Of a stretch of DNA of 44,744 nt, positions 13,670 to 30,650 are shown in pieces. The stretch comes from Propionibacteriaceae bacterium (GTDB taxonomy: Bacteria > Actinomycetota > Actinomycetes > Propionibacteriales > Propionibacteriaceae), in NCBI GenBank assembly GCA_025965155.1, contig JAOPXN010000007.1, positions 1 through 44,744 on the forward strand, in the 5' to 3' direction. The translations under genes were made by a program, and so were the position numbers. Positions within the stretch are counted from its first letter, which is position 1. The number at the start of each line of letters is the position of its first letter. The notes beneath the pieces were generated by a model, which saw nothing but the letters and a program-made list of their open reading frames with translations, searched no databases and was not told where the DNA came from.

Positions 13670-13691
13670 ACAAGCCCGGCCTGGATGAGCT

Positions 13692-13725
13692 CTGCCTGAG
13701 CACAGCGCGGGCTGTGCTCAGGCAG
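13692..13725. terminator. Bidirectional terminator between ribH and the chelatase gene
   Basis: A perfect 15-bp stem (CTGCCTGAGCACAGC pairing with GCTGTGCTCAGGCAG) closes a four-base loop GCGG. It sits in the 64-base gap between two convergent genes. No U-run follows on either strand, as is common in high-GC actinobacteria. Confidence 0.75.
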
Positions 13726-13733
13726 GGACTCAC

Positions 13734-14793: not shown

Positions 14794-16472
14794 CGGAGCA
14801 CCTCCTCATCGACGCGGGCGACCCAGCGGGCGAAGGACTCCGTGTCCTCGCGCTGCTCGAGATAGGTGCGCGAAAGCTTCTCGACGTAGTCGGGGAGGTG
14901 GTCGGCGGTGACCTTGTGGGCGCGGAGCTTGCGACCGAATCCGGCCTCGAGTCCCAGTGCGCCACCGAGATGCACCTGGAAGCCTTCGACCTGGTCACCG
15001 TTCTCGTCGAGGACGAGCATCCCCTTGAGGCCGATGTCGGCGGTCTGGATGCGGGCGCAGGAGTTGGGGCAGCCGTTGACGTTCACGGTGATGGGTGTGT
15101 CGAGCTCCGGCACACGCTTCTCCATCTCGTCGATGAGATCGGCCGCACGCACCTTCGTCTCGACGATTGCGAGCTTGCAGAACTCGATGCCGGTGCAGGC
15201 CATCGTGTGCTGGCGCCAGGCCGAGGGCCGCGCCTCGAGGCCGATTGCCGCCAGGTCGGCGACCGCGGCCTCGACATCAGCCTCGGCGATGTCGAGCAGG
15301 ACCAGCTTCTGGTGCGCTGTCGTACGGATGCGGTCCGTGCCGAAGCGCTCGGCGACATCCGCGAGCTGTGACAGCAAGGTGCCGGAGACACGCCCCACGA
15401 CCGGAGCGACACCGATGTAGAACTTGCCGTCCTTCTGCTCGTGCACGCCGACGTGATCGCCCGGGGTTTCTGGCAGCTCGGGTGAGGGGCCGTCGATCAG
15501 CGGACGCTTGAGGTACTCGGTCTCCATGACCTCGCGGAATTTCTCGACACCCCAGTCGGCGATCAGGAACTTGATGCGGGCGCGGGCGCGCAGTCGGCGA
15601 TAGCCGTAGTCACGGAACGTGCTGGCGACGGCACCCCACACCTCGGGCACTTCTGCGTCAGGGATCCAGGCCCCCACCCGCTGGGCCAGCATCGGGTTGG
15701 TGGACAGACCTCCGCCGACCCAGAGGTCCCAACCGGGACCGTGCTCGGGATGGACGACGCCGACGAAGGCGATGTCGTTGATCTGCGGCACGGTGTCGTG
15801 GCTGGGATGGCCGGTGATGGAGGTCTTGAACTTGCGCGGCAGGTTGGAGTACGCCGGGTCGCCGATGTATTCGCGCTCGATCCGCTCGATCGCACTCGTG
15901 CCGTCGATGATCTCGTCAACCGCGATGCCGGCGACGGGGGAGCCGAGGATGACCCGAGGGCAGTCGCCACAGGCCTCCTGGGTGTGCAGGCCGACGGCCT
16001 CGAGGCGCTCCCAGATCGCGGGCATGTCCTCGACCCGAATCCAGTGATACTGCACGTTCTGCCGGTCGGTCATGTCCGCGGTGTCGCGGGCGTACGTCGT
16101 GGAGAGCTCACCGATTGCGCGCAGCTGCTCGACGGTGAGCTGGCCACCGTCAATGCGTACGCGCAGCATGAAGTACGAATCCTCGAGGTCTTCGGGCTCC
16201 AGGGTTGCGGTCTTGCCGCCGTCGATGCCCGGCTTGCGCTGGGTGTAGAGGCCCCACCAGCGGAATCGTCCGCGCAGGTCGCTCTTGTCGATCGAGTCGA
16301 AGCCGCGGTGCGCGTAGACGTTCTCGATGCGCGCGCGAACGTTCAGCGGATTGTCGTCCTTCTTGGACTGCTCATTGGCGTTCAGTGGCTCGCGGTAGCC
16401 CAACGCCCACTGACCCTCGCCGCGCTTGGGGCGCGGTCGACGGGCGGTGTCGTTGCCTGCTGCTGGTGCCAT
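14790..16472 (-). CDS. sir: Ferredoxin-dependent sulfite/nitrite reductase (siroheme, [4Fe-4S])
   Basis: Reduces sulfite to sulfide by six electrons, or nitrite to ammonia in close relatives. The 560 residues carry the double reductase repeat and the cluster/siroheme cysteines C426-x5-C432 (ACTGIEFCKLA) and C468-x3-C472 (NGCPNSCAR). The Tyr in GLYTQRKPG and the ACGDCPR cysteines resemble those cross-linked in mycobacterial NirA. The start at ATG 16472 has AAGGAAG just upstream; the frame extends eight codons further. Company with a siroheme chelatase and an HVDL leader peptide favours sulfite. No cysH or cysDN is in the window. Confidence 0.92.
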   Translation of the reverse strand: MAPAAGNDTARRPRPKRGEGQWALGYREPLNANEQSKKDDNPLNVRARIENVYAHRGFDSIDKSDLRGRFRWWGLYTQRKPGIDGGKTATLEPEDLEDSYFMLRVRIDGGQLTVEQLRAIGELSTTYARDTADMTDRQNVQYHWIRVEDMPAIWERLEAVGLHTQEACGDCPRVILGSPVAGIAVDEIIDGTSAIERIEREYIGDPAYSNLPRKFKTSITGHPSHDTVPQINDIAFVGVVHPEHGPGWDLWVGGGLSTNPMLAQRVGAWIPDAEVPEVWGAVASTFRDYGYRRLRARARIKFLIADWGVEKFREVMETEYLKRPLIDGPSPELPETPGDHVGVHEQKDGKFYIGVAPVVGRVSGTLLSQLADVAERFGTDRIRTTAHQKLVLLDIAEADVEAAVADLAAIGLEARPSAWRQHTMACTGIEFCKLAIVETKVRAADLIDEMEKRVPELDTPITVNVNGCPNSCARIQTADIGLKGMLVLDENGDQVEGFQVHLGGALGLEAGFGRKLRAHKVTADHLPDYVEKLSRTYLEQREDTESFARWVARVDEEVLR

Positions 16473-16566
16473 GAACTTCCTTTGGAGGAGGGGCACACGG
16501 CGATCCGGGACGCTGGTCTCAGGTGAGTCGCCGCGCGCCGTCAGAGATGCAAGAGGGTGCGCTTGG

Positions 16567-16647
16567 TCAGCGACACATCATGTTGCGGGCACGACCGAGG
16601 TCTACGTGGAGTCGTCCCACGAGCCAGAGGGTCTGTGCAGAAAGCAT
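16567..16647 (-). CDS. HVDL-type leader peptide upstream of sir
   Basis: A 26-codon ORF ending LVGRLHVDLGRARNMMCR. The core R-x-HVDLxR followed by a Cys near the C-terminus is the hallmark of the short 'putative leader peptides' found before sulfur-assimilation genes in actinobacteria. The Cys penultimate to the end would let translation report on charged tRNA-Cys. It lies 94 bases before sir. A possible promoter is TTGTCG at 16684-16679, a 17-base spacer, and CACACT, which would place transcription within a few bases of the ATG. An upstream in-frame Met would lengthen the peptide. Confidence 0.7.
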   Translation of the reverse strand: MLSAQTLWLVGRLHVDLGRARNMMCR

Positions 16648-16688
16648 GCGTTCAGTGTGCTGATCGCGGTCCCGTACGACAACTGTGC

Positions 16689-16725
16689 GTCCCAAGATGT
16701 GGGACACCTGTCCGTATCGTGGGAC
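16689..16725. promoter_or_regulatory. GTCCCA inverted/direct repeats upstream of the sulfur operon
   Basis: GTCCCA-AGATG-TGGGAC forms a perfect 6-bp-arm inverted repeat at 16689-16705, and a further GTGGGAC lies at 16719-16725. A fourth copy (GTCCCAC) is at 16614-16620 inside the leader ORF. The cluster is directly upstream of the likely leader-peptide promoter and could bind a sulfur regulator. The regulator is unknown. Confidence 0.45.
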
Positions 16726-16772
16726 CAGCGGTGCAGCGTGCCGCGGAATTCGTGCGACACGTGTGGCCTGCG

Positions 16773-17396
16773 TCACTCCGACCCAGCAATGACCGGCATC
16801 GTGTAGGCGCCGATGACCGCGCCGATCAAACCGGCTCCAGCGGCGATGAGCGCAACGCTCCACGGCACGAGACTCGCGGTGGCGATGCCGATGATGACCG
16901 CTGGATTGAGCGCCGTGGTGAAGCCGAGCGGCAGTGCGGCAGCGGTGAGGATCGGTGGAACTGCGGCATACGCCTCATTGACCGCCCCGTCGATCGCGAA
17001 CAGCACCCACGTGCTGATGATCGCCAAAACGCCGACGACGATTCCGGTCACCAGGCGTGCGGGCTGGGTGAAGACGAGCGTGTCACCGAGCCGGCTGTCG
17101 AGACCGTTGGCGGCCAGACCGCCGATCACCGCACCGACAACCTGAGCTGCGACGAGCGGCAGGATTGCGGCGCGATTGGCGCGACCCACGAGGGTGAGGG
17201 CAAGTGCCGCGGCGGGGCTGGTCAGCGCGAGCCCGGACTCCTCCTCTGTGGTGTGCAGCCCGGCGAGCCAGGTGACCACGACCGCCATCGCCGCAACTGC
17301 CAGGACGGCGACCGTCGCATCGGGCGCACGCAGGGCGAGCGCGGCGACGAACGTCGTGAGAGCAGCAAGGATCGCTGCGACGGACAAGGTACGCAT
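16773..17396 (-). CDS. Divergent aquaporin-like (MIP) membrane protein
   Basis: A 207-residue, very hydrophobic protein with about six membrane segments. The segment SGLALTSPAAALALTLVGR followed by PLVAAQVVGAVIGGL lines up with the first MIP half (SGAHLNPAVT...AQ..GA), with NPA replaced by SPA. The second half contains TALNPAVIIGIA with NPA intact but lacking the NPA-R arginine. I infer a MIP-fold channel with altered selectivity; the assignment rests on this pattern only. It starts directly after the AidB-like gene's stop (TGAATG), so the two form an operon. Confidence 0.6.
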   Translation of the reverse strand: MRTLSVAAILAALTTFVAALALRAPDATVAVLAVAAMAVVVTWLAGLHTTEEESGLALTSPAAALALTLVGRANRAAILPLVAAQVVGAVIGGLAANGLDSRLGDTLVFTQPARLVTGIVVGVLAIISTWVLFAIDGAVNEAYAAVPPILTAAALPLGFTTALNPAVIIGIATASLVPWSVALIAAGAGLIGAVIGAYTMPVIAGSE

Positions 17397-19046
17397 TCAG
17401 GACTCCAGGTGAGGGGTGGTGCGAGCGACGATGCCGGCGAGGTCGAGTCCACGGGGGAGCGTGCCGAACGTGCCGCCCCAGTCGCCGGCCAGACGCGATG
17501 CGCAGAACGCGTCGGCAACGGCCGGATCTCCGTGCTTGATCAGCACGGCTCCCTGCAAGCACGTGGCCATGCTGGCCGCGGTGCGCCTGGCCCGCATCTC
17601 GACATCAGTGAAGTCGGCGAGCTCGTTGAGCACGCCTTCGACGGCGGTGTCGAGGCGCGGGTCCTCACCGCGTACGTCCGCCATCTCGGTGATCCAGGCG
17701 TCCAGCGTCTCGGGCTCGCGGCCAAGGGCGCGCAGCACGTCGAGCGCATTGACGTTGCCGCTGCCCTCCCAGATCGAGTTGAGCGGCGACTCGCGGAACA
17801 TCAACGGCATACCGGACTCTTCGACGAAGCCATTGCCACCGAGACACTCGAGTGCTTCGGCCACCATCATCGGGGTGCGCTTGCACACCCAGAATTTCTC
17901 GAGTGCGAGCCCGATGCGGCGCAGCGCCTGCTCGTGCGGATCGTTGGGTTTGTCGACTGCCGCGGCAAGGCGGATCGCGACGAATGTCGCGGCCTCGGTC
18001 TCGACCGCGAGGTCAGCCAGCACATTGATCATGGCCGGCTGGTCGGCGAGGGTGGCGCCGAATGCCGCGCGGTGGGAGGTGTGCCACGCCGCCTCGGCCA
18101 GCGCCTTGCGCATCAGTGCGGCCGAGCCGAGGATGCAATCCATCCGGGTCGCAGAGACCATCTCGATGATCGTGCGGATGCCGCGGCCCTCGTCGCCGAG
18201 CCGGGTCGCGTACGTGTCGTTGAACTCCAGCTCGCTCGAGGCATTCGACCGGTTGCCGAGCTTGTCCTTGAGCCGGACTATCGACAGCGTGTTGCGGGTG
18301 CCATCGGGGCGTACGCGTGGCACGACGAAGCAGGTCATCCCCTCAGGCGCCTGGGCGAGCACCAGGAAGACGTCATTCATGGGCGCGGAGGTGAACCACT
18401 TGTGGCCGGTCAACAGATAGTCGCCATGCGTCTCGGTGGGTCGCGCGATCGTCGAGTTGGTTCGCAGGTCTGAACCACCCTGCTTCTCGGTCATCCCCAT
18501 CCCGGCGAGCAGTCCTGCCTTCTCCTCCGGCGGTCGTAGCCCGAAGTCGTACGTCCGCGAGGCGAGCCCCGCTGTCCATTGCTTGGCGAGGGCATCATCG
18601 GCTCGCAGGGCTGGCACGACGGCGTACGTCATCGTGATGGGGCACATGTGTCCGCCTTCGGACTGTCCCCAGGTGAAGAATCCGGCCGCGCGCTTGAGGT
18701 GCGCGACCGGGCTCTGTGAGATCCAGGGCTCGGCAGTGAGCCCGAAGCCGACGCCCTGGGTCATCAACCAGTGCCACGACGGGTGGAACTCGACCTCGTC
18801 GATGCGCTTGCCATAGCGGTCATTGGTTCGCAGGATCGGCTCGTTCTCGTTGGCGAGGTGCCAGTGCTCGCGCGCCTCTGCAGAACCGGCCAGGTGGCCC
18901 ATCGGCGTGATGGCCTCGACGATCTCGTCGGTGTGCGTGCCGCCGAAGGCGCGAACGGCCTGCATCAGCGCGTTGTCGCTGGTGGCGATGTTGTATCCGA
19001 CGAGAGGCGTGGCCTGATTCTCAGGTACGCGTTGCAGGGGATCCAT
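17397..19046 (-). CDS. Acyl-CoA dehydrogenase family protein, AidB-like
   Basis: A flavoprotein of 549 residues, longer than standard acyl-CoA dehydrogenases and like E. coli AidB. AidB is induced by alkylation stress, but its substrate is unsettled. Visible features are TYAVVPALR, the FAD-contacting GMGMTEKQGGSDLRTN and HKWFTSAPMNDVFLVLAQ, and the C-terminal ECLGGNGFVEESGMPLMFRE with SIWEGSGNVNALDVLRAL. The start at ATG 19046 is set by a TACCGT hexamer six bases upstream that it shares with the divergent gene at 19064. The downstream partner is the aquaporin-like gene. Confidence 0.88.
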   Translation of the reverse strand: MDPLQRVPENQATPLVGYNIATSDNALMQAVRAFGGTHTDEIVEAITPMGHLAGSAEAREHWHLANENEPILRTNDRYGKRIDEVEFHPSWHWLMTQGVGFGLTAEPWISQSPVAHLKRAAGFFTWGQSEGGHMCPITMTYAVVPALRADDALAKQWTAGLASRTYDFGLRPPEEKAGLLAGMGMTEKQGGSDLRTNSTIARPTETHGDYLLTGHKWFTSAPMNDVFLVLAQAPEGMTCFVVPRVRPDGTRNTLSIVRLKDKLGNRSNASSELEFNDTYATRLGDEGRGIRTIIEMVSATRMDCILGSAALMRKALAEAAWHTSHRAAFGATLADQPAMINVLADLAVETEAATFVAIRLAAAVDKPNDPHEQALRRIGLALEKFWVCKRTPMMVAEALECLGGNGFVEESGMPLMFRESPLNSIWEGSGNVNALDVLRALGREPETLDAWITEMADVRGEDPRLDTAVEGVLNELADFTDVEMRARRTAASMATCLQGAVLIKHGDPAVADAFCASRLAGDWGGTFGTLPRGLDLAGIVARTTPHLES

Positions 19047-19063
19047 GTCGCTACGGTAGAGCC
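19047..19063. promoter_or_regulatory. Divergent promoter with overlapping -10 hexamers
   Basis: The whole region between the two start codons is 17 bases. TACGGT (plus, 19052-19057) is six bases from the ATG at 19064, and TACCGT (minus, 19058-19053) is six bases from the ATG at 19046. The two hexamers share five base pairs. Both messages would be leaderless, and polymerase could occupy only one direction at a time. Confidence 0.65.
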
Positions 19064-19951
19064 ATGGTGGTCGAACCGGTAGACCGACCGGGCGTCCCAA
19101 CGCTGGTCAAGAAGGTCGTCACCCGCACCGTCAGCAGCTGTTTTCGCTATCGAGTGACGGGCCTCGCCGCTGAGGCCGCATTCTTTGCGATCCTGTCGCT
19201 GCCCCCGTTGGTGTTCGGTCTCGCCGGCACGATCGGCTTCATCGCGAACCGCTACAACGTCGACCAGGTCGACGTTGTCAGGACCCGCATCCTCGACATC
19301 GCCTCCAAGGCACTGACGCCCAGCACGGTCGACTCCGTGGTCAAACCCACGCTCAACGACGTGCTCGGCAACGGACGTATTGACGTCATCTCGATCGGCT
19401 TCGTCCTGGCGCTGTGGTCGGGGTCGCGGGCGCTCAACGTCTTCATCGACACCATCACGATCATCTACGGCTTCGCCGGCCATCGTGGCGTCGTCAAGAC
19501 CCGCGCACTGTCCTTCGCGCTGTACGTCGTGGCGCTTCTTGTCGGCATCGTCGTGGTGCCGCTCGTGCTTGCCGGTCCCGAGGTGGCAGCCGATGTCATC
19601 CCGCAACGTTTCCATTTCCTCAAACACATCTATTGGCCCGCCGTGCTGCTGCTGTCGATCGGATTCCTGACGACGCTCTATCACCTGGCCCTCCCGGTCC
19701 GTCGACGGTGGCGCGTCGGTCTGCCGGGTGCGATCTTCACGCTGTCCCTGTGGATCTTCGGCAGCTATTTCCTCCGGTGGGCGCTGAGCCTCTCCACCGG
19801 TGGCACCTCGATCTACGGACCGTTGGCGGCACCGATCGCCGTACTGCTGTGGCTGTATGTCCTCTCGATCGCCGTGCTGATCGGCGCCGCGATCAACGCT
19901 GCCTTTGATGAAGACGTGAGCGCTGGTCAGGCCGCCAACGAGCCCCATTAG
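19064..19951 (+). CDS. YihY/BrkB family membrane protein (copy 1)
   Basis: A 295-residue inner-membrane protein with about six membrane segments. It is recognised by EAAFFAILSLPPLVFGLAG, the central ALWSGSRALNVFIDTIT, and the C-terminal TGGTSIYGPLAAPIAVLLWLY. The family was once called ribonuclease BN, but it is not a nuclease, and its role in transport or envelope function is unresolved. The ATG at 19064 is fixed by the leaderless -10. Its stop codon TAG forms the first half of the -10 hexamer of the next gene. A second member lies at 41720. Confidence 0.9.
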   Translation: MVVEPVDRPGVPTLVKKVVTRTVSSCFRYRVTGLAAEAAFFAILSLPPLVFGLAGTIGFIANRYNVDQVDVVRTRILDIASKALTPSTVDSVVKPTLNDVLGNGRIDVISIGFVLALWSGSRALNVFIDTITIIYGFAGHRGVVKTRALSFALYVVALLVGIVVVPLVLAGPEVAADVIPQRFHFLKHIYWPAVLLLSIGFLTTLYHLALPVRRRWRVGLPGAIFTLSLWIFGSYFLRWALSLSTGGTSIYGPLAAPIAVLLWLYVLSIAVLIGAAINAAFDEDVSAGQAANEPH

Positions 19952-19961
19952 GCTTCCGGGC

Positions 19962-20354
19962 ATGAGAAGACTGCCGTACGTCATCGCGTACGTGATCGCG
20001 ACGGCGCTGATCATCACGGGGCTGATCTACGGACTTCGCAGCCGCGGTGGCGATGACGACAAACCATCCGCTGCCACGCCGAGCGCCAAGGCCACTCCGG
20101 TGAAGTACATGTCCTCCGACGGCGTCATCGAGAACATCGAGCGACGGTTGACCGAGCATCAGGGACGCCAGATGAAGGCGTCCTGCCCGAAGCGGGTGGC
20201 CATGACGGTGGGCAGCACGTTCACCTGCGATGTCTACTTCGCCGATCGCAAGGACGCGATCGGCATCGCGCAGGTGAAGATCGACGGACCGAATGGCGAG
20301 TTCAGCTGGAAGTCCAAGCCCATCGCGAAGAGCACGTCCACGCCGACGAGCTGA
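19962..20354 (+). CDS. DUF4333-like secreted or membrane-anchored protein
   Basis: A 130-residue protein with one N-terminal membrane segment (YVIAYVIATALIITGLIYGL), a Ser/Thr/Pro/Ala linker, and an outside domain. That domain has two cysteines in ASCPKRVAMTVGSTFTCDV, the DUF4333 pattern with a probable disulfide. The function is unknown. TAGGCT at 19949-19954 lies seven bases before the ATG and uses the stop codon of the YihY gene as its first three bases. The downstream gene converges with three bases between stops. Confidence 0.7.
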   Translation: MRRLPYVIAYVIATALIITGLIYGLRSRGGDDDKPSAATPSAKATPVKYMSSDGVIENIERRLTEHQGRQMKASCPKRVAMTVGSTFTCDVYFADRKDAIGIAQVKIDGPNGEFSWKSKPIAKSTSTPTS

Positions 20355-20357
20355 CGG

Positions 20358-21197
20358 CTATCGCAGGACTGAGTACGCGATGACGCTCGGCACGACGAGC
20401 CAGATCGCCAGCAGCAGGATCGAGGCGATCACGGCAAACATCCGGGCCTGATCCTTGGGCGGGCTGCCGGCGTCACCGATGACCTCCCACAACGCCTGGA
20501 ATGACGCGTCGATCGCGATGCGTCCGCGGCTGCGGGCAATTCCGGCGGCCTTGAGCACGCACCAGAACACCCCGAGGCCCACGATCAGGAATCCGGCGGA
20601 AAAGCAGAACCGGCCGATGTCGCTGGTCAGACTGTCGCCGACAAATGACAGCGTGCCGGAGATGGCGGCACCTCCGACCAGGAACGCCGGCAGCGGAAGG
20701 CTCGTCTTGTTGAGATCCGGCGCGATCGCGTCGACCTGGATTCGTGCGGTCGCCAGCAGCTGATATTCGTCGGATCCCACCGGGGAGTTGGCCTCGCGCA
20801 GCGCATACAGCTGACGCAGGTGGCTGACCAGTCTCTTCTGGAAGCTTCGTACGATCACCGTGATCAGGAGCTGCACGATCTGGTTGGCGACGGGCTTGAT
20901 CAGCTTGGGGACCTTGAGCGCTGAGGGCGGGCGCGGACCGTTGCGATCGAACACCTCGAGGGCCCGCATTGCGCGGCGATGGGCCTCGTCGAAGCGACTC
21001 GTGTGGAGCAGGGGCACCTTGCTGCTGAGCTCTTTCAGCATCTGGTTCTCGATCTGACCGCTGCTGCCGAAGGCTTCAAGCAGGGCTTCGGTCTGCGCAC
21101 TGTCGCCGCCGCGCAGCATCTGCAGCGACTCGAGCCGGTCGCTGAGGTCGTCGATGAGCAACTTCTCCTCAGGCTTGACCTCATGCTCGATGGACAT
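20358..21197 (-). CDS. Unknown membrane protein
   Basis: About 279 residues: a hydrophilic helical N-terminal half rich in charged residues, then three or four hydrophobic segments in the C-terminal half (AFLVGGAAISGTLSFVG, FCFSAGFLIVGLGVFWCVL, and FAVIASILLLAIWLVVPSV at the end). I do not recognise the family. TACTGT at 21210-21205 is seven bases before ATG 21197, which is why I prefer this start to the ATG seven codons upstream. The layout suggests a cytoplasmic domain tethered to the membrane. Confidence 0.65.
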   Translation of the reverse strand: MSIEHEVKPEEKLLIDDLSDRLESLQMLRGGDSAQTEALLEAFGSSGQIENQMLKELSSKVPLLHTSRFDEAHRRAMRALEVFDRNGPRPPSALKVPKLIKPVANQIVQLLITVIVRSFQKRLVSHLRQLYALREANSPVGSDEYQLLATARIQVDAIAPDLNKTSLPLPAFLVGGAAISGTLSFVGDSLTSDIGRFCFSAGFLIVGLGVFWCVLKAAGIARSRGRIAIDASFQALWEVIGDAGSPPKDQARMFAVIASILLLAIWLVVPSVIAYSVLR

Positions 21198-21271
21198 AAT
21201 CCGAACAGTAGGACTCAACGCCGCCGGTTGTCAGGCAAACGGACAGGTGGTGACCTCGTTCACCGGCCCGC

Positions 21272-22309
21272 TCAGTGAGCGGCGACGGTGAGATGAAATG
21301 TCTTGGCGAAGTCGGGCGCGGTCGCCTGCTTTCCGAGACGTGCCGTGTGGCCGATGTCGGCGAGGAAACCACCGAGGGAGAACAGATCCACCGGCGCATT
21401 GGTCGAGTAGTGGGAAAGCGCCGGATGGATCACGATCATCGGGATGTCGTTGACGCCCTTCTTGTCGTCCTCATCCGCCGTGACCACGATCATCAGGTGT
21501 CCGCTCTTCCAGTCCGGCCCGGACTGCAGGACTTGGACCTGGTCGGCGATCCAGTCGTCCGCCTGCTTGACCTGTGTCGGGGCAGTGCCCTTGCAGTCAT
21601 CGTGGGCGTTGTGACACTGATCGGGGATCAGTCCACCGACGTTCGGCAGATCTCCACTGGCCACATCCGCCGCGAGCGTGCTGGCGTTGACCGTGTAGCG
21701 CTCGAAGTTGGCTTGCTTCGTCGGTGTTGCCACGAAGGGCACGGTGAACACGTGCCGAGGCACGTACTTCCCGATCTTCTTGCGCCGGTCGCCAACCGAG
21801 GACGGCAGGCCGTCGACGTACATCTTCATCGTGCGGCCCGCGGCCAGGGTGTTGTTCCAGATGTCTGGCTGGGACAGCGTCTTGACTCCGTCGGACGTGA
21901 TGTATCTGCCCCCGGCGCTGAGGCACACGTAGTTGGGCAGGGATGGGTGGCCACAAGGCGCCAGGGCGTTGGGGGCGGACCCGTACTTGTCCGCCAATGC
22001 GGTGAGCCGCGGCGCCTCGGTCCTGATCTGCGCGGACGAATGGTTCTCCAGGACGATCACGATCGCCTTGTCGACCTGGGTCGACGGTTCCTTCGGTGTG
22101 GGAGTTGGCGTAGGTGTCGCCGTTGGCGTTGGCGTCTGGGTCGAACCGTGCGACGGTCGGGTGGTGCTCGGCGTTGTGGCGTTGTCGTCCGAAACCAGCT
22201 TGTACACCAGCGCGCCCGACCCCACGAGGGCGATGAGCATGAATCCCACGACGACAACCAAACGCCGCCGACGTCGGGCCGCTCTGCGGCCGCGATGGTT
22301 TGAGACCAT
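21272..22309 (-). CDS. Exported phosphoesterase (acid phosphatase / phospholipase C-like)
   Basis: A protein of about 345 residues, anchored by one N-terminal membrane segment (VVVVGFMLIALVGSGALVY) after an Arg-rich head. A Thr-Pro repeat linker of about 30 residues leads to the phosphoesterase domain outside the cell. The domain shows AIVIVLENHSSAQI with the catalytic Thr/Asn-type N-terminus of the PF04185 family, GHPSLPNYVCLSAG, and VVTADEDD. It probably hydrolyses phosphate mono- or diesters. I choose ATG 22309 because AGAGG lies six bases upstream; ATG 22315 is two codons earlier. Confidence 0.8.
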   Translation of the reverse strand: MVSNHRGRRAARRRRRLVVVVGFMLIALVGSGALVYKLVSDDNATTPSTTRPSHGSTQTPTPTATPTPTPTPKEPSTQVDKAIVIVLENHSSAQIRTEAPRLTALADKYGSAPNALAPCGHPSLPNYVCLSAGGRYITSDGVKTLSQPDIWNNTLAAGRTMKMYVDGLPSSVGDRRKKIGKYVPRHVFTVPFVATPTKQANFERYTVNASTLAADVASGDLPNVGGLIPDQCHNAHDDCKGTAPTQVKQADDWIADQVQVLQSGPDWKSGHLMIVVTADEDDKKGVNDIPMIVIHPALSHYSTNAPVDLFSLGGFLADIGHTARLGKQATAPDFAKTFHLTVAAH

Positions 22310-22480
22310 GTTCATCCTCTGATTCCCGAGTCACATCGCGACTATTGCGCCGACTTCCTGCGCGCGAGACTATCAACGGAAGCGGTCTCATGCCTGCGTA
22401 TCTGCGCCGTCGGGTGTCGCGACCGGAGCGGGCGCGGGTTGGGCCGGCATGTCTGCCTTCGGGCTGGCCTGCCGACCCCG

Positions 22481-22510
22481 AAAACCAGAAAATCCCCGGT
22501 TTCCCGGGGA
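22481..22510 (-). terminator. Intrinsic terminator of the tRNA operon
   Basis: On the minus strand, TCCCCGG-GAAA-CCGGGGA forms a 7-bp stem with a GNRA tetraloop (22510-22493), followed directly by TTTTCTGGTTTT. It lies ten bases after the tRNA-Val 3' end. This is the clearest canonical Rho-independent terminator in the window. Confidence 0.85.
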
Positions 22511-22519
22511 CAAACTGTG

Positions 22520-22591
22520 TGGGCGATACCGGGATTGAACCGATGACCTCTTCCGTGTCAGGGAAGCGCGCTACCGCTGCGCCAATCGCCC
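22520..22591 (-). tRNA. tRNA-Val (GAC)
   Basis: A 72-base cloverleaf. The acceptor arm GGGCGAT pairs with ATCGCCC, the discriminator is A, the anticodon loop CTGACAC reads GAC, and the T arm has TTCAATC. CCA is not encoded. It is the last gene of a Gly-Cys-Val operon. It is very similar to the tRNA-Val(CAC) gene on the other strand at 24027. Confidence 0.95.
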
Positions 22592-22641
22592 CTATGGGGG
22601 TAGTGCCGTGCGTGGTGCCCGTACGTATGAAGTTGTGTTTG

Positions 22642-22712
22642 AGGTGGGTACGGGATTTGAACCCGTGTACACGGATTTGCAGTCCGTTGCCTCGCCTCTC
22701 GGCCACTCCACC
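22642..22712 (-). tRNA. tRNA-Cys (GCA) with mismatched acceptor stem
   Basis: A 71-base gene with anticodon GCA in CTGCAAA, intact anticodon, D and T arms, and discriminator U as expected for Cys. The 5' acceptor strand is GGTGGAG but the 3' strand is ACCCACC, so pairs 6-67 (A-C) and 7-66 (G-A) fail. The 3' strand would pair perfectly with GGTGGGT, and the 5' strand with CTCCACC. The gene therefore looks like a hybrid of two alleles. See findings. Confidence 0.9.
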
Positions 22713-22758
22713 TTGGCTGGGGAGAACCTCCCCTGTGGTGTGGGCGAGACTCGCTCCG

Positions 22759-22831
<73 letters not shown>

Positions 22832-22888
22832 ATGCATTCGGCCGTTCCGGATCCCTCGCGGTTTCCCTCTGGCTGACTGCGCTCGAAA

Positions 22889-22918
22889 ACCATAGCCGAG
22901 CCGGGCGCAGGTGTCCAA
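22889..22918 (-). promoter_or_regulatory. Promoter of the tRNA Gly-Cys-Val operon
   Basis: On the minus strand, TTGGAC (22918-22913) and TATGGT (22894-22889) are separated by 18 bases. The first tRNA begins about 58 bases downstream. The same TATGGT hexamer precedes tRNA-Val(CAC) at 23988-23993 and pabC at 23025-23030. Confidence 0.6.
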
Positions 22919-23027
22919 ACCAGGGTCGCCAGTGTCCACGGGTGGAGCGCGACGCCTGGCGTGTTGCCACCTGCGGTATGGAGCGGACCGCGAGCCGCGC
23001 GAAGGCGGCCCAGGCACCCGCCCTTAT

Positions 23028-23052
23028 GGTGGTGGTCGTGACGACCACCACC
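23028..23052. repeat. 25-base palindrome over the start of the aminotransferase gene
   Basis: The arms GGTGGTGGTCGT and ACGACCACCACC are perfectly complementary around a single central G at 23040. The palindrome overlaps the last base of a putative ATG (23026), the -10 TATGGT and the preferred GTG start at 23038. It could be an operator or, in a longer transcript, a hairpin hiding the start codon. Confidence 0.6.
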
Positions 23053-23910
23053 AACAGACCTACCTCTGAGCTGACTGACCAGTTGAGGATCTGGATCGAC
23101 GGGACCGTCTACGCAGACCCGGAGCGGGCCCGCGTGGCCGCGGTTGACCACGGTCTCGTCGTGGGCGACGGCGTCTTCGAGGCGCTCAAGGTCACCGTGG
23201 ACGGCCCCTTCACGGTCGGCCGGCACCTAGCGAGGCTGACCCGTTCCGCCCGTGCCATGGGTCTGCCGGACCCCGACCATGGGCTGATCCGGGAGGCCAT
23301 CGCCGCCGTCCTCGCGGACCGTACCTTCACCGACGGCAAGATCCGGATCACCTACACCGGTGGACGGGGCCCGCTCGGCTCCCACGCCGCCTTCGGACCG
23401 CCGACCCTGGTGGTCGCTGCCGACAGCCGTACGGTGTCGGATTCCTCCGTGGCGATCGTCACCGCGCCGTGGAGCCGGAACGAGAAGGGCGCGCTGGCCG
23501 GGGTCAAGTCCACCTCGTACGGCGAGAACGTCCGCGCTCTTGCCTACGCGGAAGAACGACAAGCCGCTGAGTCGATCCTGCTGAACACCGTCGGCCACGT
23601 CTGCGAGGGCACCGGGTCCAACATCTTCTGCGTCTTCGGCTCCCAGATCGTCACGCCACCGCTGTCCGCCGGTCCGCTGGCAGGTATCACCCGCGAGCTC
23701 GTCCTGGAGTGGGCGGACGTCTCCGAGGAAAACCTCACGCTGACCGAGGCCCAGTCGGCGGATGAGGTCTTCATCACGTCATCCCTGCGTGACGTCCAAG
23801 CCGTGCACCGCTGGGACGAGGTCGACTACACCACCGAAGGGATCGGCCCCCGGACCCAGGAGGTGGCCGAGATCTTCGCCCGGCAGACCGCGGAGTCCCT
23901 GGAACCCTGA
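23038..23910 (+). CDS. pabC: Aminodeoxychorismate lyase / branched-chain aminotransferase family (PabC-like)
   Basis: A fold-type IV PLP enzyme of about 290 residues. Family features are [30 protein letters not shown], the PLP lysine K157 in [11 protein letters not shown], and [10 protein letters not shown] with [15 protein letters not shown] near the end. These suit 4-amino-4-deoxychorismate lyase for folate synthesis, but D-amino-acid or branched-chain aminotransferase activity is not excluded. The GTG at 23038 is preferred because TATGGT (23025-23030) would give a leaderless mRNA beginning there; an ATG at 23026 lies inside that hexamer. An upstream open frame through the tRNAs is spurious. 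Confidence 0.85.
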
Positions 23911-24026
23911 CAACCCGTACCAGCCGACGAGGCCTGGTGGACGCGCGCAAGACACTAATGCGGTGCGATCGGGGTCCGACAATGAGATATGGTTGGCGTC
24001 GCGTCTCGCACGGAAGCGGCGCAAGC

Positions 24027-24098
24027 GGGCGATTGGCGCAGTGGTAGCGCGCTTCGTTCACACCGAAGAGGTCACTGGTTCGAACCCAGTATCGCCCA
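24027..24098 (+). tRNA. tRNA-Val (CAC)
   Basis: A 72-base cloverleaf: acceptor GGGCGAT/ATCGCCC, discriminator A, anticodon loop TTCACAC reading CAC, T arm CTGGTTCGAACCCAG. TATGGT at 23988-23993 is a likely -10. It lies alone between pabC and thrS. Confidence 0.95.
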
Positions 24099-24187
24099 CC
24101 CGCCTGAGCCCTCGTTCGCCACAAGCCAACGGGGGTTCAGTTGTTTTCCGCAGGTCTCATGCTTGTTGTTGGAGGAAGGAGAAAGCC

Positions 24188-26155
24188 GTGTCCAGTTCGC
24201 TCACCGTGGTTCGCGCAGGCTCGTCGCACCAGCAGGTGATCGAGGAGACGACCACCGGCCTGGACCTCTTCTCCGACGACCGCACGGTGGTGGCGGTACG
24301 GGTCAACGGCGAGATCCGTGACCTGCACCGGCCGTTGGCCGCCGGTGATGTGGTGGAGCCGGTGGAGAACTCCTCGCCCGAGGGCCTGTCGATCCTGCGG
24401 CACTCCGCCGCCCACGTCCTGGCCCAGGCCGTTCAGGCCAGCCGGGACGCCAAACTCGGCATCGGCCCGCCGATCACCGACGGCTTCTACTACGACTTCG
24501 ACGTGGCGGAGCCCTTCACCCCAGACGACCTCCGGGCCCTGGAAAAGGGCATGTCCAAGATCATCAAGGAGCGCCAGCGGTTCGTCCGCCGTGCCGTCTC
24601 CGAGGACGACGCTCGTGCCGAGCTTGCCGACGAGCCGTACAAGCTGGAGCTGATCGGTCTCAAGGGCGGCTCCAGCGCAGACGACGGCTCGAACGTCGAG
24701 GTGGGTGCCGGCGAGCTGACCATCTACGACAACCTACGGCGCGACGGCTCGGTGGCCTGGAAAGACCTGTGCCGCGGCCCGCACGTCCCACACACCGGCT
24801 ACATCCCGGCGTTCGCGCTGATGCGCAACGCTGCCGCGTACTGGCGGGGGAGCGAGAAGAACAAGCAGCTCCAGCGGGTCTACGGCACCGCCTGGGCCAC
24901 CCGGGACGACCTGAAGGCCTACCAGACCCGGCTGGAGGAGGCGGCCCGCCGCGACCACCGCAAGCTGGGCGCCGAGCTTGACCTCTTCTCCTTCCCGGAG
25001 GAGCTCGGGTCAGGTCTCGCGGTGTTCCATCCCAAGGGCGGCATCATCCGGCGCGAGATGGAGCAGTACTCCCGCCAGCGGCACCAGGACTCCGGCTACG
25101 AGGTCGTCAACACCCCGCACATCTCCAAGGGTGGGCTGTTCGAGACCTCGGGCCACCTGCCGTACTACGCCGACACCATGTTCCCGCCGATGGAGCTGGA
25201 AGGTACGGAGTACTGGCTGAAGGCGATGAACTGCCCGATGCACAACCTGATCTTCCGCTCCCGCGGCCGCTCCTACCGCGAGCTGCCGCTGCGGCTGTAC
25301 GAGTTCGGCTCGGTCTACCGGTACGAGAAGTCGGGCGTGGTTCACGGGCTGACCCGGGTCCGCGGGATGACCCAGGATGACTCGCACATCTACTGCACCC
25401 CGGAGCAGATGCAGGACGAGCTGAAGAACCTGCTCAGCTTCGTCCTCGACCTGCTGCGCGACTACGGGCTCAACGACTTCTACCTGGAGCTCTCCACCCG
25501 CGACGACTCCGACAAGTTCATCGGTGACCCGGAGGACTGGGAGACCGCTACCGAGGCCCTCCGTCAGGCGGCGACCGACTCTGGGCTTGAGCTGGTACCC
25601 GACCCGGGAGGGGCGGCCTTCTATGGTCCCAAGATCTCGGTCCAGGCTCGGGACGCGATCGGACGCGCGTGGCAGATGTCGACGATCCAGCTCGACTTCA
25701 ACCAGCCGCGCCGCTTCGGCCTCGAGTACACCGCGGCCGACGGCAGCCGGCAGCAGCCGATGATGATCCACCGTGCCCTGTTCGGTTCCATCGAACGCTT
25801 CATGGGTGTCCTCACCGAGCACTACGCCGGCGCGTTCCCGCCCTGGCTGGCACCCGTACAGGTGATCGGCATCCCGGTGGCCGACGAGTTCAACGACTAC
25901 CTGCTGGATGTGGCCACACGGCTCCGCGCGGCCGGCGTACGGGTCGAGGTCGACACCAGCGACGACCGGATGCAGAAGAAGATCCGGACGGCCCAGAAAT
26001 CCAAGGTGCCGTTCATGTTGATCGCCGGCGGTGACGACGTCGCGGCCAATGCGGTCTCGTTCCGCTACCGCGACGGCCGGCAGAACAACGGTGTCGCAGT
26101 CCAGCAGGCCATCGACGAGATCGTCCAGGCGATCGCCACCCGGCAACAGGTCTGA
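24188..26155 (+). CDS. thrS: Threonyl-tRNA synthetase
   Basis: Charges tRNA-Thr; 655 residues, complete. The order is an N-terminal TGS-like domain (about residues 1-65), then the editing/SAD domain beginning [11 protein letters not shown]. The class II catalytic core follows, with [15 protein letters not shown] (zinc-ligand Cys), [19 protein letters not shown] (motif 2) and [14 protein letters not shown] (motif 3). The anticodon-binding domain is last. The GTG start is supported by GGAGGAAGGAG just upstream. It opens an operon: the HIT gene follows after 18 bases. Confidence 0.97.
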
Positions 26156-26173
26156 AACCAAGGAGGAGCGACA

Positions 26174-26740
26174 GTGGCGGAGAACATGGAGGATGCCGAC
26201 TCACGTGCCGGCGCGCCCGACGCGTTCCAGCGACTGTGGACTCCGCACCGGATGGTGTACATCAACGGGGAGAACAAGCCACCCTCGCACGCCCCGGAGG
26301 TCTGCCCGTTCTGCACCACGCCCGACCGCGACGACGAGGAGGGGCTGATCGTGCACCGCGGCAGGTACGCGTACGTCGTGCTCAACCTCTACCCGTACTC
26401 GCCGGGGCACCTGCTGGTCTGCCCGTACCGGCACGTGGCCGACTACACCGACCTGGACACCGACGAGACGATGGAGGTCGCGACCCTGAGCCAGCAGGCG
26501 ATGCGGGTTATCCGGGCCGCCAGCGCGCCAGCCGGGTTCAACCTCGGGCTGAACCAGGGGTCAGCGGCCGGTGCCGGGATTGCGGCACACCTGCACCAGC
26601 ACGTGGTGCCGCGGTGGGCCGGCGACTCCAACTTCCTGCCGGTGATCGGCCAGACCAAAGCCCTGCCGCAGCTGCTGGGCGACACCTGGAAGTCGCTGCG
26701 GTCTGCCTGGGACGAGCTGTCCGCGTCCGATCGACGGTGA
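26174..26740 (+). CDS. HIT family hydrolase/phosphorylase
   Basis: A 188-residue histidine-triad protein of the diadenosine polyphosphate group. The nucleotide-binding histidines are in IAAHLHQHVVPRW, preceded by SPGHLLVCPYRHV, and an N-terminal CPFC pair may bind zinc. It likely cleaves Ap4A or similar nucleotides, by-products of aminoacyl-tRNA synthetases, which fits its place after thrS. The GTG start has AAGGAGGAGC upstream; an ATG four codons later is possible. The thrS-HIT-pgsA order is usual in actinobacteria. Confidence 0.9.
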   Translation: MAENMEDADSRAGAPDAFQRLWTPHRMVYINGENKPPSHAPEVCPFCTTPDRDDEEGLIVHRGRYAYVVLNLYPYSPGHLLVCPYRHVADYTDLDTDETMEVATLSQQAMRVIRAASAPAGFNLGLNQGSAAGAGIAAHLHQHVVPRWAGDSNFLPVIGQTKALPQLLGDTWKSLRSAWDELSASDRR

Positions 26741-26747
26741 ACGACTG

Positions 26748-27365
26748 ATGTTGGAACGTTTTCGCGTCCGGTGGGCCAAGATCCTCACCCCGATCGCCCG
26801 CTTCCTGCTCCGCCACGGGGTCTCACCGGACCTGGTGACCGTGATCGGTACGGCCGGGGTCGTCGTCGGGGCCCTGCTGTGCTTCCCACTGGGCTGGCTC
26901 TGGCAGGGCGTCCTGGTCGTGACGTTATTTGTCTTCTCCGACATGATCGACGGCCAGATGGCCAAGATGAGCGGCAGAGCCAGCCTCTGGGGCGCGTTCC
27001 TCGACTCGAGCCTGGACCGGTTCGGCGACGCCGCCGTCTTCGGTGGTCTGCTGCTGTGGTTCGCCGGCCCGCGGGACTCGGTGCTCTGGGCGGGGGTCAC
27101 TTTGGCAGCGCTCGTGGTTGGTCAGCTCACCTCGTACGTGAAGGCGCGAGCCGAGAGCCTCGGCTTCACCTGTCGCGGCGGTCTAGCGGCGCGCGCGGAC
27201 CGGCTGCTGCTCATCCTGGTCGGTGCAATGCTGGCCGGCCTGGGTGTCCCGTACGTGCTCGAGATTGCGGTGTCTGCGTTGGCGCTGGGCGGTGTCATTA
27301 CGGTCGGGCAGCGGATCGCGCAGGTCTATCGGCAGTCGAAGGCAGAGGATGTCCAGCCTGCGTAA
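26748..27365 (+). CDS. pgsA: Phosphatidylinositol (phosphate) synthase
   Basis: Membrane CDP-alcohol phosphatidyltransferase of 205 residues. The catalytic motif is FSDMIDGQMAKMSGRASLWG followed by FLDSSLDR, i.e. D-x2-DG-x2-A...G-x3-D-x3-D. In actinobacteria the copy between thrS-HIT and patA-pimA makes phosphatidylinositol phosphate from CDP-diacylglycerol and inositol phosphate, the base of phosphatidylinositol mannosides. That specific assignment rests on context. About five membrane segments are visible. It overlaps the next gene by 17 bases. Confidence 0.9.
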   Translation: MLERFRVRWAKILTPIARFLLRHGVSPDLVTVIGTAGVVVGALLCFPLGWLWQGVLVVTLFVFSDMIDGQMAKMSGRASLWGAFLDSSLDRFGDAAVFGGLLLWFAGPRDSVLWAGVTLAALVVGQLTSYVKARAESLGFTCRGGLAARADRLLLILVGAMLAGLGVPYVLEIAVSALALGGVITVGQRIAQVYRQSKAEDVQPA

Positions 27366-28221
27366 GGCGCTGCTGCGGCTGCTCTACCGGATCGGGTGGC
27401 GGATCGGCCCGCTGGTTCCGACTCGGCTGCAGCGGATACTGGTGCGCGCCGGAACGCACATCACGCTCCGGCAGCGACCGGCGGCGCTGGACGTGCTGCG
27501 GCAAAACCTGGCCATAGCCACCGGCGAGCCGGTCGGCGATGCGCTGGTCCGGGCGGCGGTGGAGTCGTATCTGCGCAACTTCGTCGAGGTCTTCGCGCTT
27601 CCCGGGTGGACGCCGGCGATGGTCACAGACCGGGTCGTCACCACCGGCGAGGAGTACCTCCGGAACGCGTACGCCGACGGCGGTGCTGTGGTGGCGCTGC
27701 CGCACAGCGGCAACTGGGACCTGGCCGGTGCCTGGGCGTGCCTGACCGGTATGCCGGTGTCGACCGTCGCTGAACGCCTGCCCGCCGCGGAGTTCGCCGC
27801 CTTCCTTGGCTTCCGCCGGGCACTAGGAATGGAGGTCCTCGCGCACGACGACCCGACGTCCCTGTCGCGGCTGGTGTCTGGGGCGGAGTCGGGCCGGTTG
27901 GTGTGCCTGGTCGCCGACCGCGACCTCGGCGGAACCGGACTGCCGGTGCGCTGGGGTGCCTCGGGCGCTTCGGTACGGATGCCGGCCGGACCAGCCATGG
28001 TCGCCCGACGCAGCGGGGCAGCGCTGATCCCGGCCGTCTGCAGCTTCGCCGGTCGGCGCATGTTGATCAGCTTCGGCCCACCGATCGAGGCCGAGGCGGG
28101 CCGAGACGGCCTGACCAGGATGACTCAGCAGGTAGCCGACTTCTTCGCCGAGCAGATCGCCAGCCGCCCCCAGGACTGGCACATGTTCCAACCGTTCTTC
28201 GCGCCGGCGGTCCAGCGATGA
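27349..28221 (+). CDS. patA: Phosphatidylinositol mannoside acyltransferase (LpxL/HtrB family)
   Basis: A 290-residue acyltransferase that adds a fatty acid to the mannose of phosphatidylinositol mannosides. The H-x4-D catalytic motif is ALPHSGNWDLAGAW, followed by VAERLPAAEFAAFLGFRR and VADRDLGGTGLPVRWG. The start at ATG 27349 lies inside the 3' end of pgsA; the stop overlaps the pimA start as ATGA. Gene order pgsA-patA-pimA supports the call over other lauroyl-type acyltransferases. Confidence 0.9.
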   Translation: MSSLRKALLRLLYRIGWRIGPLVPTRLQRILVRAGTHITLRQRPAALDVLRQNLAIATGEPVGDALVRAAVESYLRNFVEVFALPGWTPAMVTDRVVTTGEEYLRNAYADGGAVVALPHSGNWDLAGAWACLTGMPVSTVAERLPAAEFAAFLGFRRALGMEVLAHDDPTSLSRLVSGAESGRLVCLVADRDLGGTGLPVRWGASGASVRMPAGPAMVARRSGAALIPAVCSFAGRRMLISFGPPIEAEAGRDGLTRMTQQVADFFAEQIASRPQDWHMFQPFFAPAVQR

Positions 28222-29432
28222 GAGTCGGCCTGGTCTGTCCCTACTCCTTCGACAGCCCCGGTGGGGTGCAGAACCACGTGCTCGGCCTCGCGGCCTACCT
28301 GCGCCGGCACGGCCATGAACCATCCATCTTGGCGCCGGGCGAGCTGGACGACACCGATCCACTGCAGTCCGAGCTCCGGTCAAGCTTCACCTCGGCCGGC
28401 AGCGCGATCCCGGTGCCGTACAACGGCTCAGTGGCGCGGGTGAACTTCGGTCCGCGGAGTGCTGCTCGAGTTCGCCGGTGGCTGCGCGCAGGCGAGTTCG
28501 ACCTGGTGCATATCCACGAGCCCATCACACCCAGCGTCGCGATCCTCGCCCTCTGGGCCTGTGAGGTGCCCGTGGTAGCAACCTTCCACACCGCCACCCC
28601 ACGGTCTCGGACGATGCAGGTCGCCGGCGGCACCATGCAAAGTGCGGTCGAGAAGATCGACGCCGGCATCGCTGTGTCCGAGTCGGCTCGGCGGGTCGTA
28701 GTGCAGCACCTCGGCCGGGACGCGGTAGTCGTACCGAACGGGTTCAGCCACGCCGACTTCGCTTCGGTGGCGGACCTGCCCGGCACCGAAGCGAAGATGT
28801 CCCCCTGGCGGGGCGGCGAACGGCCACGGCTGACTTTTCTCGGCCGCGTGGATGAGCCCCGGAAGGGTTTGGACGTGCTGCTGGCTGCGCTGCCGACCAT
28901 CCGCGCCCAGGTCCCTGAGCTGGACGTTGTCGTTGCCGGCCAGGGCAGTCGCCGACTTCCTCCGGGGTGCTCCATGCCCGGGGCCATCAGCAACGACGAG
29001 CGCGCCGCCCTGCTGGCAGGTACGGACGTGTTCGTGGCGCCTCACCTGGCCCGGGAGAGCTTCGGCATCGTGCTGCTGGAGGCGATGGCGGGCGGCGCTG
29101 CGGTGGTGGCTTCCGATCTTCCCGCGTTCGTCGACATCCTTTCCGCTGGTACGGCTGGCACCGCTGGCCCGTCCGACCGGGCTGGCCGCGACGCGCTCCT
29201 TGGCAGCATCTTCCCGGCCGGGGACAGCGAGGCGCTGGCGTCCTCGGTAGCCGGGGTTCTGCTCCGGCCGGACCCGACGCGTACCGAAGCAGCAAGGTCG
29301 GCCAGCCGCCGCTATGACTGGGCGGTGGTGGGTAATGAGATCGTCGAGGTGTACCGCGCCGCCGTGTCGGCCGGTTCGCCGTCGGTCCCTGGTCGGTTGC
29401 GACCGGTGACGAGCAGGCAGGGGGCCGGATGA
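28218..29432 (+). CDS. pimA: Phosphatidyl-myo-inositol mannosyltransferase
   Basis: GT4 glycosyltransferase of 404 residues that transfers the first mannose from GDP-mannose to phosphatidylinositol at the inner leaflet. The N-terminus MRVGLVCPYSFDSPGGVQNH is the typical acceptor-side loop. FDLVHIHEPITPS and the C-terminal donor site ARESFGIVLLEAMAGGAAVV (E-x7-E) are intact. Coupled to patA by an ATGA overlap. Confidence 0.93.
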   Translation: MRVGLVCPYSFDSPGGVQNHVLGLAAYLRRHGHEPSILAPGELDDTDPLQSELRSSFTSAGSAIPVPYNGSVARVNFGPRSAARVRRWLRAGEFDLVHIHEPITPSVAILALWACEVPVVATFHTATPRSRTMQVAGGTMQSAVEKIDAGIAVSESARRVVVQHLGRDAVVVPNGFSHADFASVADLPGTEAKMSPWRGGERPRLTFLGRVDEPRKGLDVLLAALPTIRAQVPELDVVVAGQGSRRLPPGCSMPGAISNDERAALLAGTDVFVAPHLARESFGIVLLEAMAGGAAVVASDLPAFVDILSAGTAGTAGPSDRAGRDALLGSIFPAGDSEALASSVAGVLLRPDPTRTEAARSASRRYDWAVVGNEIVEVYRAAVSAGSPSVPGRLRPVTSRQGAG

Positions 29433-29445
29433 GCATGGTGCACCA

Positions 29446-29985
29446 GTGAGCGCCTGGCATCTCGACACCGCCCTGATCGTGCTCGGCTGCGTCCTGATCG
29501 TCACGCTGGCTATCGGTTGGCGGCTGTCCTGGCTGGCCACCCGGCTGGATCGTGCCCACGGCCGTGCCGAACGCACCTGGGCCGCCTTGGACGCTGCGCT
29601 TGTCCGCCGGTCGCACCGCGCCATGGAGATTGCGGCCGACCCGCGCATCGACCCAGCCACTGCCTTGCTGGTGCTGGACGCGGCGTCGCAGGCGTTGGAG
29701 GAGGAGCTCAGCCAATCTGAGAGGGAGCAGGCGGAGAGCACTCTTGGACATATTCTGTCCGTCGTCGAGCTACCCGGCATCGACCTGGAGCAGCACCGAG
29801 CCGCGCTGGCTCGGCGGCTGCACAACGATGCAGTGGTCACGGTGCAGTCACTGCGTCGTCGACGCGGCGTACGGCTGTTCCGACTCGCCGGACACGCCGG
29901 GGAGCCGACGGCCTTCGAGGTCGCCGACTTCGATCGGCTCGGGCCCGGCGACCGGACGCGGCCGGGAACTGTCCAGCCCAACTAG
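29446..29985 (+). CDS. Unknown membrane-anchored protein downstream of pimA
   Basis: A 179-residue protein with one N-terminal membrane segment (LIVLGCVLIVTLAIGW). A helical cytoplasmic region rich in Arg, Glu and Ala follows, resembling LemA-like coiled helices. A protein of this type often follows pimA in actinobacteria; no function is known to me. GTG 29446 is the only start close to the pimA stop. Its TAG stop is followed by an intergenic gap of 26 bases before pgsA2. Confidence 0.65.
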   Translation: MSAWHLDTALIVLGCVLIVTLAIGWRLSWLATRLDRAHGRAERTWAALDAALVRRSHRAMEIAADPRIDPATALLVLDAASQALEEELSQSEREQAESTLGHILSVVELPGIDLEQHRAALARRLHNDAVVTVQSLRRRRGVRLFRLAGHAGEPTAFEVADFDRLGPGDRTRPGTVQPN

Positions 29986-30011
29986 TCTGGCGCCAGTGTT
30001 AGGAGAAACTC

Positions 30012-30650
30012 GTGGAATCCGCTGAGGTGGGCCGACTCAACCCGTCGGGGTACGACACCGACCGGGTCTGGACGCTGCCCAACGTGCTCAGCCTGCTACG
30101 GCTCGCCGGCGTCCCGGTGCTGCTATGGCTGATCCTTGGACCGGAGGCTGACCTGATCGCGGTCGGTGTGCTCATGGTCGCCGGGTTCACCGACTGGCTG
30201 GACGGCCACCTGGCGCGGCGCTGGCACCAGACCTCCCGGCTCGGCCAGATGCTGGACCCGATCGCGGATCGCTTCTACATCCTCGCCACCCTGCTCGGGC
30301 TGGCAGTCCGCGGCATCATCCCGTGGTGGCTGGTCATCATCCTGGTGGCTCGGGACGTGCTGATCGCGCTGCTGGTGCCGCTGCTGAAGACCCGCGGCTA
30401 CTCCTCGCTACCGGTCCACTTCCTCGGCAAGGCGGCGACGTTCTGCCTGTTGTACGCCTTCCCGCTGGTGCTGCTCGGCGCCTCGGACGGACTTCTCGGC
30501 GAGGTTGCCCGAGTGGTTGGCTGGGCCTTCGCAGTGTGGGGGACTGCGCTCTACTGGTGGGCTGGCGGCCTCTACGTCATCCAGACCGTGAGGTTGATGC
30601 GGACCACTCCGCGGGTCGGACGCGACTCCGTGATCGCGCGGACACTATGA
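30012..30650 (+). CDS. CDP-alcohol phosphatidyltransferase (PgsA2-like)
   Basis: A second phosphatidyltransferase, 212 residues, with the motif FTDWLDGHLARRWHQTSRLG and LDPIADRFY. It resembles mycobacterial PgsA2 (Rv1822), which likewise begins the cluster DUF881-sbp-DUF881-gcvH-garA. The product may be phosphatidylglycerophosphate or cardiolipin; this cannot be decided here. The GTG start has AGGAGAA nine bases upstream. Four or five membrane segments. The stop overlaps the next ATG. Confidence 0.85.
   Translation: MESAEVGRLNPSGYDTDRVWTLPNVLSLLRLAGVPVLLWLILGPEADLIAVGVLMVAGFTDWLDGHLARRWHQTSRLGQMLDPIADRFYILATLLGLAVRGIIPWWLVIILVARDVLIALLVPLLKTRGYSSLPVHFLGKAATFCLLYAFPLVLLGASDGLLGEVARVVGWAFAVWGTALYWWAGGLYVIQTVRLMRTTPRVGRDSVIARTL

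Follow-up and report, generated by a model that had tools for sequence, protein, structure and literature searches.

The 3' ends of tRNA genes are common attachment sites, and in integrative elements that use them the foreign DNA starts at the 3' half of the tRNA, as it does at the locus described here. Foreign sequence can also enter a genome record by another route: paths through de Bruijn graphs may match no real genome, and such misassemblies can yield chimeric genomes (PMC8172020). The gene at this locus closely resembles actinobacterial tRNA-Cys(GCA) genes, with which it shares anticodon, core and length. Two intact alleles occur among its relatives, GGTGGAG/CTCCACC in most Microlunatus and GGTGGGT/ACCCACC in Aeromicrobium and others, and such alleles keep pairs 6-67 and 7-66 of the acceptor stem paired. 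The tRNA-Cys of the window, by which we mean the whole 44,744-nucleotide stretch analysed here (contig C83), has the 5' strand of the first allele and the 3' strand of the second, a combination that leaves both pairs open.

About 22642..22712 (ARAGORN 22641-22712; Rfam 22642-22712), minus strand: hybrid tRNA-Cys(GCA)

Read 5' to 3', the gene sets GGTGGAG against ACCCACC, so that pairs 6-67 (A.C) and 7-66 (G.A) are broken, just as the original prediction had described (A6-C67 and G7-A66). ARAGORN and Rfam both recover the Cys anticodon and the cloverleaf. Its Rfam score of 52.2 bits is the lowest among the four tRNAs of the window, and it lacks the fully paired acceptor stem of its relatives. 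Computed folding gave -26.3 kcal/mol for the hybrid versus -29.4 and -30.4 kcal/mol for the parental forms, making the hybrid the less stable, in a run that returned a strict cloverleaf for none of the three predicted folds (hybrid and two parental forms). The differing bases are 22706-22707 at the Microlunatus-type 5' end and 22648-22649 at the Aeromicrobium-type 3' end. A second tRNA-Cys 3' half was not found elsewhere in the 4.49-Mb assembly at up to two mismatches, the window copy being the sole match. On sequence evidence, the window tRNA-Cys is best described as a mixture of two intact alleles.

Both parental forms were recovered among relatives. A pattern search of the genus Microlunatus matched a tRNA-Cys in 17 of 20 genomes, including the assembly that holds the window (G000; 4,489,009 bases in 134 contigs, completeness 100, contamination 2.28). 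Leaving G000 aside, 16 genomes had a match: 15 carry GGTGGAG/CTCCACC, and only G006 carries GGTGGGT/ACCCACC, which is also the allele of the Aeromicrobium genomes inspected. The perfect partners predicted for the two strands, CTCCACC and GGTGGGT, thus both exist, the former in Microlunatus genomes and the latter in G006 and Aeromicrobium. Among the matches listed, a 3' ACCCACC strand was paired with 5' GGTGGGT in all 121 tRNA-Cys genes (119 named loci) and with GGTGGAG in none. The family-wide search found a match in 141 of 197 genomes and none in the other 56; inspected by eye, the window gene was the only one unpaired at 6-67 and 7-66 among the matches listed for these 197 genomes. Similarly, 203 of 204 distinct gene-plus-flank sequences from the fetched loci are paired at both positions, the lone exception being the window's own. 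The patterns fix GGTGG and CCACC, so that breaks elsewhere in the stem would escape them. The proposed comparison with family relatives yielded no gene with the same unpaired stem among those examined, nor was a mixed-allele tRNA-Cys found in any other of these genes.

The coupled states at pairs 6-67 and 7-66 in the family genomes, among the matches listed, are AG/CT, GT/AC, GG/CC, CG/CG and AT/AT. GT/AC and AG/CT differ at all four bases, suggesting whole-gene exchange or fast compensation. Separately, G006 (L012 and L304, Microlunatus) stands apart from the other 15 matched genomes of the genus: its allele is the full GGTGGGT/ACCCACC, a spacer of roughly 46 bases precedes tRNA-Val, and its tRNA-Cys gene may be a real replacement.

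The tRNA cluster around the hybrid gene divides the window into two arms:

1..22641: Aeromicrobium arm, collinear with Aeromicrobium chromosomes
22519..22591, minus strand: tRNA-Val(GAC), Aeromicrobium type, with no difference from L063 in its 73 bases
22592..22641, minus strand: tRNA-Cys/tRNA-Val spacer, Aeromicrobium type, starting TCAAACACAAYTTCATACG as in L063
22650..22705, minus strand: junction interval; over these 56 bases the Microlunatus allele and an Aeromicrobium allele such as that of G410 do not differ
22706..44744: Microlunatus arm, collinear with Microlunatus genomes
22758..22831, minus strand: tRNA-Gly(GCC), Microlunatus type, within an 83-base exact match to G018

Along the minus strand, the window follows Microlunatus as far as gene base 63 and Aeromicrobium from base 64 onward. 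The hybrid's bases 22650-22712 are an exact match to the Microlunatus genome G018. The width of the junction depends on gene base 43 of the Aeromicrobium allele. With G at this base (G410), 56 identical bases are common to both parents; with T (L063, G311, G318), there are 35 common bases before it and 20 after, and the switch then falls within 22650-22669. Exact matches of at least 24 bases between L063 and either G018 contig C4 or the G008 piece were limited to 49 bases in tRNA-Val and 35 bases in tRNA-Cys. The join is thus placed in sequence identical in both parents, the tRNA-Cys core. In 12 of 15 Microlunatus genomes with the AG/CT allele, tRNA-Val abuts tRNA-Cys directly. The window's tRNA-Val(GAC) differs from that of G018 in its T arm. 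It was the sole match in the assembly with up to three mismatches allowed, and a native Microlunatus tRNA-Val(GAC) was not found there at the same threshold. Contigs of other assemblies break at this place too: as raw counts, they end within 160 bases of tRNA-Cys at 4 of 89 loci and within 1,400 bases at 10 of 89.

The genes of the left arm include:

1520-2557: hemE
2560-3903: hemY-like gene
3900-4607: hemQ-like gene
5949-6650: RibD_C gene
10017-11798: ORF with a PPK2 domain
13223-13669: ribH (lumazine synthase ORF)
13734-14492: CbiX gene
14790-16496: sulfite reductase gene
17397-19100: AidB-like acyl-CoA dehydrogenase gene
19064-19951: BrkB-like gene

The left hemE protein is 95–97% identical to Aeromicrobium proteins, whereas against each of the 19 further Microlunatus genomes it reaches only 62–70%. 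Further examples of left-arm identities are 96% for hemE (G318), 95% for the hemQ-like protein (G410) and 92% for the acyl-CoA dehydrogenase (G410). For the left sulfite reductase, 97% identity is reached with a protein from a 212,477-base JGI contig, and a 96% hemE match lies on a JGI contig of equal size. Apart from genes gained or lost here and there, the whole arm is collinear with Aeromicrobium G410, G311, G318 and G393. The tRNA-Cys falls within three of the four stretches compared, always as GGTGGGT/ACCCACC; the G393 stretch began beyond the gene, which has the same allele in that genome. In L063 (Aeromicrobium sp.), 4.2 kb match 17060-21246 at 86.7% nucleotide identity; then come the tRNA-Val, with all 73 bases identical, a spacer that is almost the same, and an intact tRNA-Cys. 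A phosphoesterase-family ORF (21272-22315, minus strand) lies between tRNA-Val and the next gene, and a gene at another place in G429 is 73% similar to it. It is absent at the corresponding place in L063 and the four Aeromicrobium stretches, and for this reason the exact Aeromicrobium parent is not among the genomes seen. An FMN riboswitch (12995-13150, plus strand; 109.6 bits, Rfam) lies upstream of the ribH ORF at 13223-13669 in this arm.

An origin of the left half in another lineage of the same family was rejected, since the best hemE and sulfite reductase identities among the 197 family genomes were 70–73%. A hemE tree built without Aeromicrobium rows did set the left copy among genera of the family, on a long branch and weakly supported; the wider protein search led to Aeromicrobium. 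A phage link of the tRNA region was likewise discarded: none of 274 records with matches covered 80% of the query, and the best 20 of the 274 cover 10–11% each, matching at tRNA genes.

The right arm holds the following genes:

Class IV aminotransferase ORF
24027-24100: tRNA-Val(CAC)
In ORF 23762-26155: ThrRS
HIT protein gene, CDP-alcohol phosphatidyltransferase gene and acyltransferase gene
36369-39233: gcvP

Matching right-side ORFs are collinear with the Microlunatus genome G008 from 23.7 kb to the end, and with a 6.2-kb G018 contig up to about 29 kb. Against G018, the ThrRS ORF and the HIT protein each reach 79% identity and the CDP-alcohol phosphatidyltransferase 86–87%. In a ThrRS tree, the window copy falls into a group holding G008 and G018, at an open fork. 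The gcvP protein is 90% identical to one protein without a species label and 82% to that of M. panaciterrae. Upstream of gcvP at 36369 lies a glycine riboswitch (36184-36284, plus strand; 61.9 bits, Rfam). The protein database places the gcvP protein on four contigs, the longest of 44,744 bases, and the left-arm hemE and sulfite reductase on one each; the other gcvP-bearing contigs might reveal the native neighbour. Best-hit taxonomy, a check that had been asked for on each side, gives Aeromicrobium on the left and Microlunatus on the right. The families guessed at the outset, Propionibacteriaceae and Nocardioidaceae, were right and can now be narrowed by protein matches to these two genera, which we take to belong to Propionibacteriaceae (Microlunatus) and Nocardioidaceae (Aeromicrobium).

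The assembly also keeps its own versions of the left-arm genes. A second hemE lies on contig C26 with hemY- and hemQ-like genes beside it, and a second sulfite reductase on contig C73, surrounded by RibD, PPK2, CbiX and BrkB genes. Their neighbours repeat the left-arm content at 37–67% protein identity to that arm. Identity is 86% between the C26 hemE and that of G018, and 80.5% between the C73 sulfite reductase and that of G008. In trees, the C26 and C73 copies group with G018 (supports 100/97 and 100/98), and the left-arm copies sit on long separate branches. Among the 20 genomes of the genus, only G000 showed a second full-length hemE or sulfite reductase; the two sulfite reductase matches in G018 are fragments of one gene. 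The left arm reads as another genome's version of a region that Microlunatus already has, and we regard this as the strongest evidence for the origin of the contig. No other contig was found that shows which native sequence stands to the left of tRNA-Cys in this Microlunatus.

Composition changes at the same place. In 20-kb pieces, the left arm has a 4-mer correlation of 0.72–0.74 and the right arm one of 0.89–0.90, measured against a mean profile drawn from 21 other contigs (23 pieces). These background pieces themselves range from 0.69 (C39, 12.4 kb) and 0.75 (C16) up to 0.91, so that C39 falls below the left arm. In 6-kb pieces the left arm gives 0.49–0.62, mostly inside the background spread (mean 0.69, sd 0.09). 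The change in codon habits claimed at the tRNA held up for Arg, Leu, Thr and Tyr codons in 14 left and 8 right hand-picked ORFs, a test that, like the 6-kb pieces, is weaker than the 20-kb comparison. C39 (L242) and C16 (L237), which have the lowest 4-mer correlations sampled, are possibly further foreign DNA or islands.

Taken together, the states of the alleles, the taxonomy of the two sides, the second copies of native type and the junction interval, all of them shown here, point to a chimera, and contig C83 very probably arose through the false joining of an Aeromicrobium piece to a Microlunatus piece. The sample would have held both a Microlunatus and an Aeromicrobium, whose reads were assembled together. 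The assembly path would leave the Microlunatus chromosome inside tRNA-Cys, within a stretch of some tens of bases common to both genomes, and then run on into the Aeromicrobium chromosome. Filed with the Microlunatus genome, the resulting contig would show an apparent tRNA-Cys made of one parent's 5' strand and the other's 3' strand. We infer both the mixed sample and the assembler, rather than the cell, as maker of the join. The native left neighbour would have been lost or left out of the assembly, and with it the native tRNA-Val(GAC); its absence fits an assembly gap, and a true replacement would look alike. The odd tRNA-Cys is almost certainly not a real gene but the mark of an assembly join.

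The original prediction had proposed a hybrid of two alleles, left by either recombination or an assembly join. The hybrid itself is supported by the two intact alleles in relatives and by flanks from two genera. Between the two origins, the assembly join is favoured because native copies of left-side core genes sit on C26 (hemE-hemY-hemQ) and C73 (CbiX, sulfite reductase, BrkB), and natural recombination is far less probable. A genuine inter-family transfer, in which at least 22 kb of Aeromicrobium DNA recombined at tRNA-Cys in a Microlunatus and left a partly diploid cell with a mismatched but working tRNA-Cys, is very improbable. Homologous recombination also starts at identical stretches, and the junction does lie in sequence common to both genomes. 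The assembly holds one tRNA-Cys of this type, so that the gene must work if the contig is real. However, had the segment replaced its counterpart, the resident hemE and sulfite reductase should be gone, yet they are present; had it been inserted, the resident tRNA-Val(GAC) should remain, yet it was not found. Moreover, the segment consists of ordinary core genes in chromosomal order, and none of the 22 left ORFs scanned has an integrase, recombinase or transposase family match. It is likewise very improbable that the contig is real as it stands; a Microlunatus would then carry at least 22 kb of Aeromicrobium core genes in addition to its own copies, taken up through homologous recombination within tRNA-Cys, and would live on a single tRNA-Cys with two acceptor-stem mismatches.

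An integrative element with tRNA-Cys as its attachment site, bringing in the foreign 3' end, would account for foreign sequence on the 3' side only. We reject this reading as extremely improbable, since a second tRNA-Cys 3' end was not found in the window or, at up to two mismatches, in the assembly, although a far border on another contig with more than two mismatches could escape such a search. Nor is there an integrase family match among the 22 left-side ORFs scanned, and the gene order of the left arm is that of Aeromicrobium chromosomes rather than of a mobile element. A half-compensated tRNA, mutated in place on the 3' strand with the 5' strand yet to follow, has next to no probability: relatives change both pairs together, so that intermediates existed or whole genes were exchanged, but no other gene examined shows the intermediate, and a point mutation leaves the Aeromicrobium spacer, the tRNA-Val and the next 22 kb of genes unexplained.

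As a false join, the contig has no biological significance; it is to be flagged as an artefact and not read as new biology. It places some 22 kb of core genes from a different family in a Microlunatus genome, and any claim of gene transfer or gene duplication resting on the contig, for example that of an additional hemE or sulfite reductase, would be false. For the present, C83 is best cut at about 22650-22705 and its left part taken out of the Microlunatus genome. The case further suggests an inexpensive check that needs no reads, as acceptor-stem strands that match different known alleles can expose a false join.

Set against the described systems, the window is unlike integrative elements at tRNA genes in that no direct repeat of the tRNA 3' end was found at up to two mismatches in the assembly, and no integrase family match among the 22 left ORFs scanned. 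It closely resembles the chimeric contigs of k-mer short-read assembly, in which two organisms are joined in a short identical stretch, core genes are duplicated in the bin, and composition and best-hit taxonomy change at the join. Unlike in the usual chimeric contig, gene order on each side is the natural order of the respective parent, and a broken tRNA acceptor stem betrays the join from the sequence itself.
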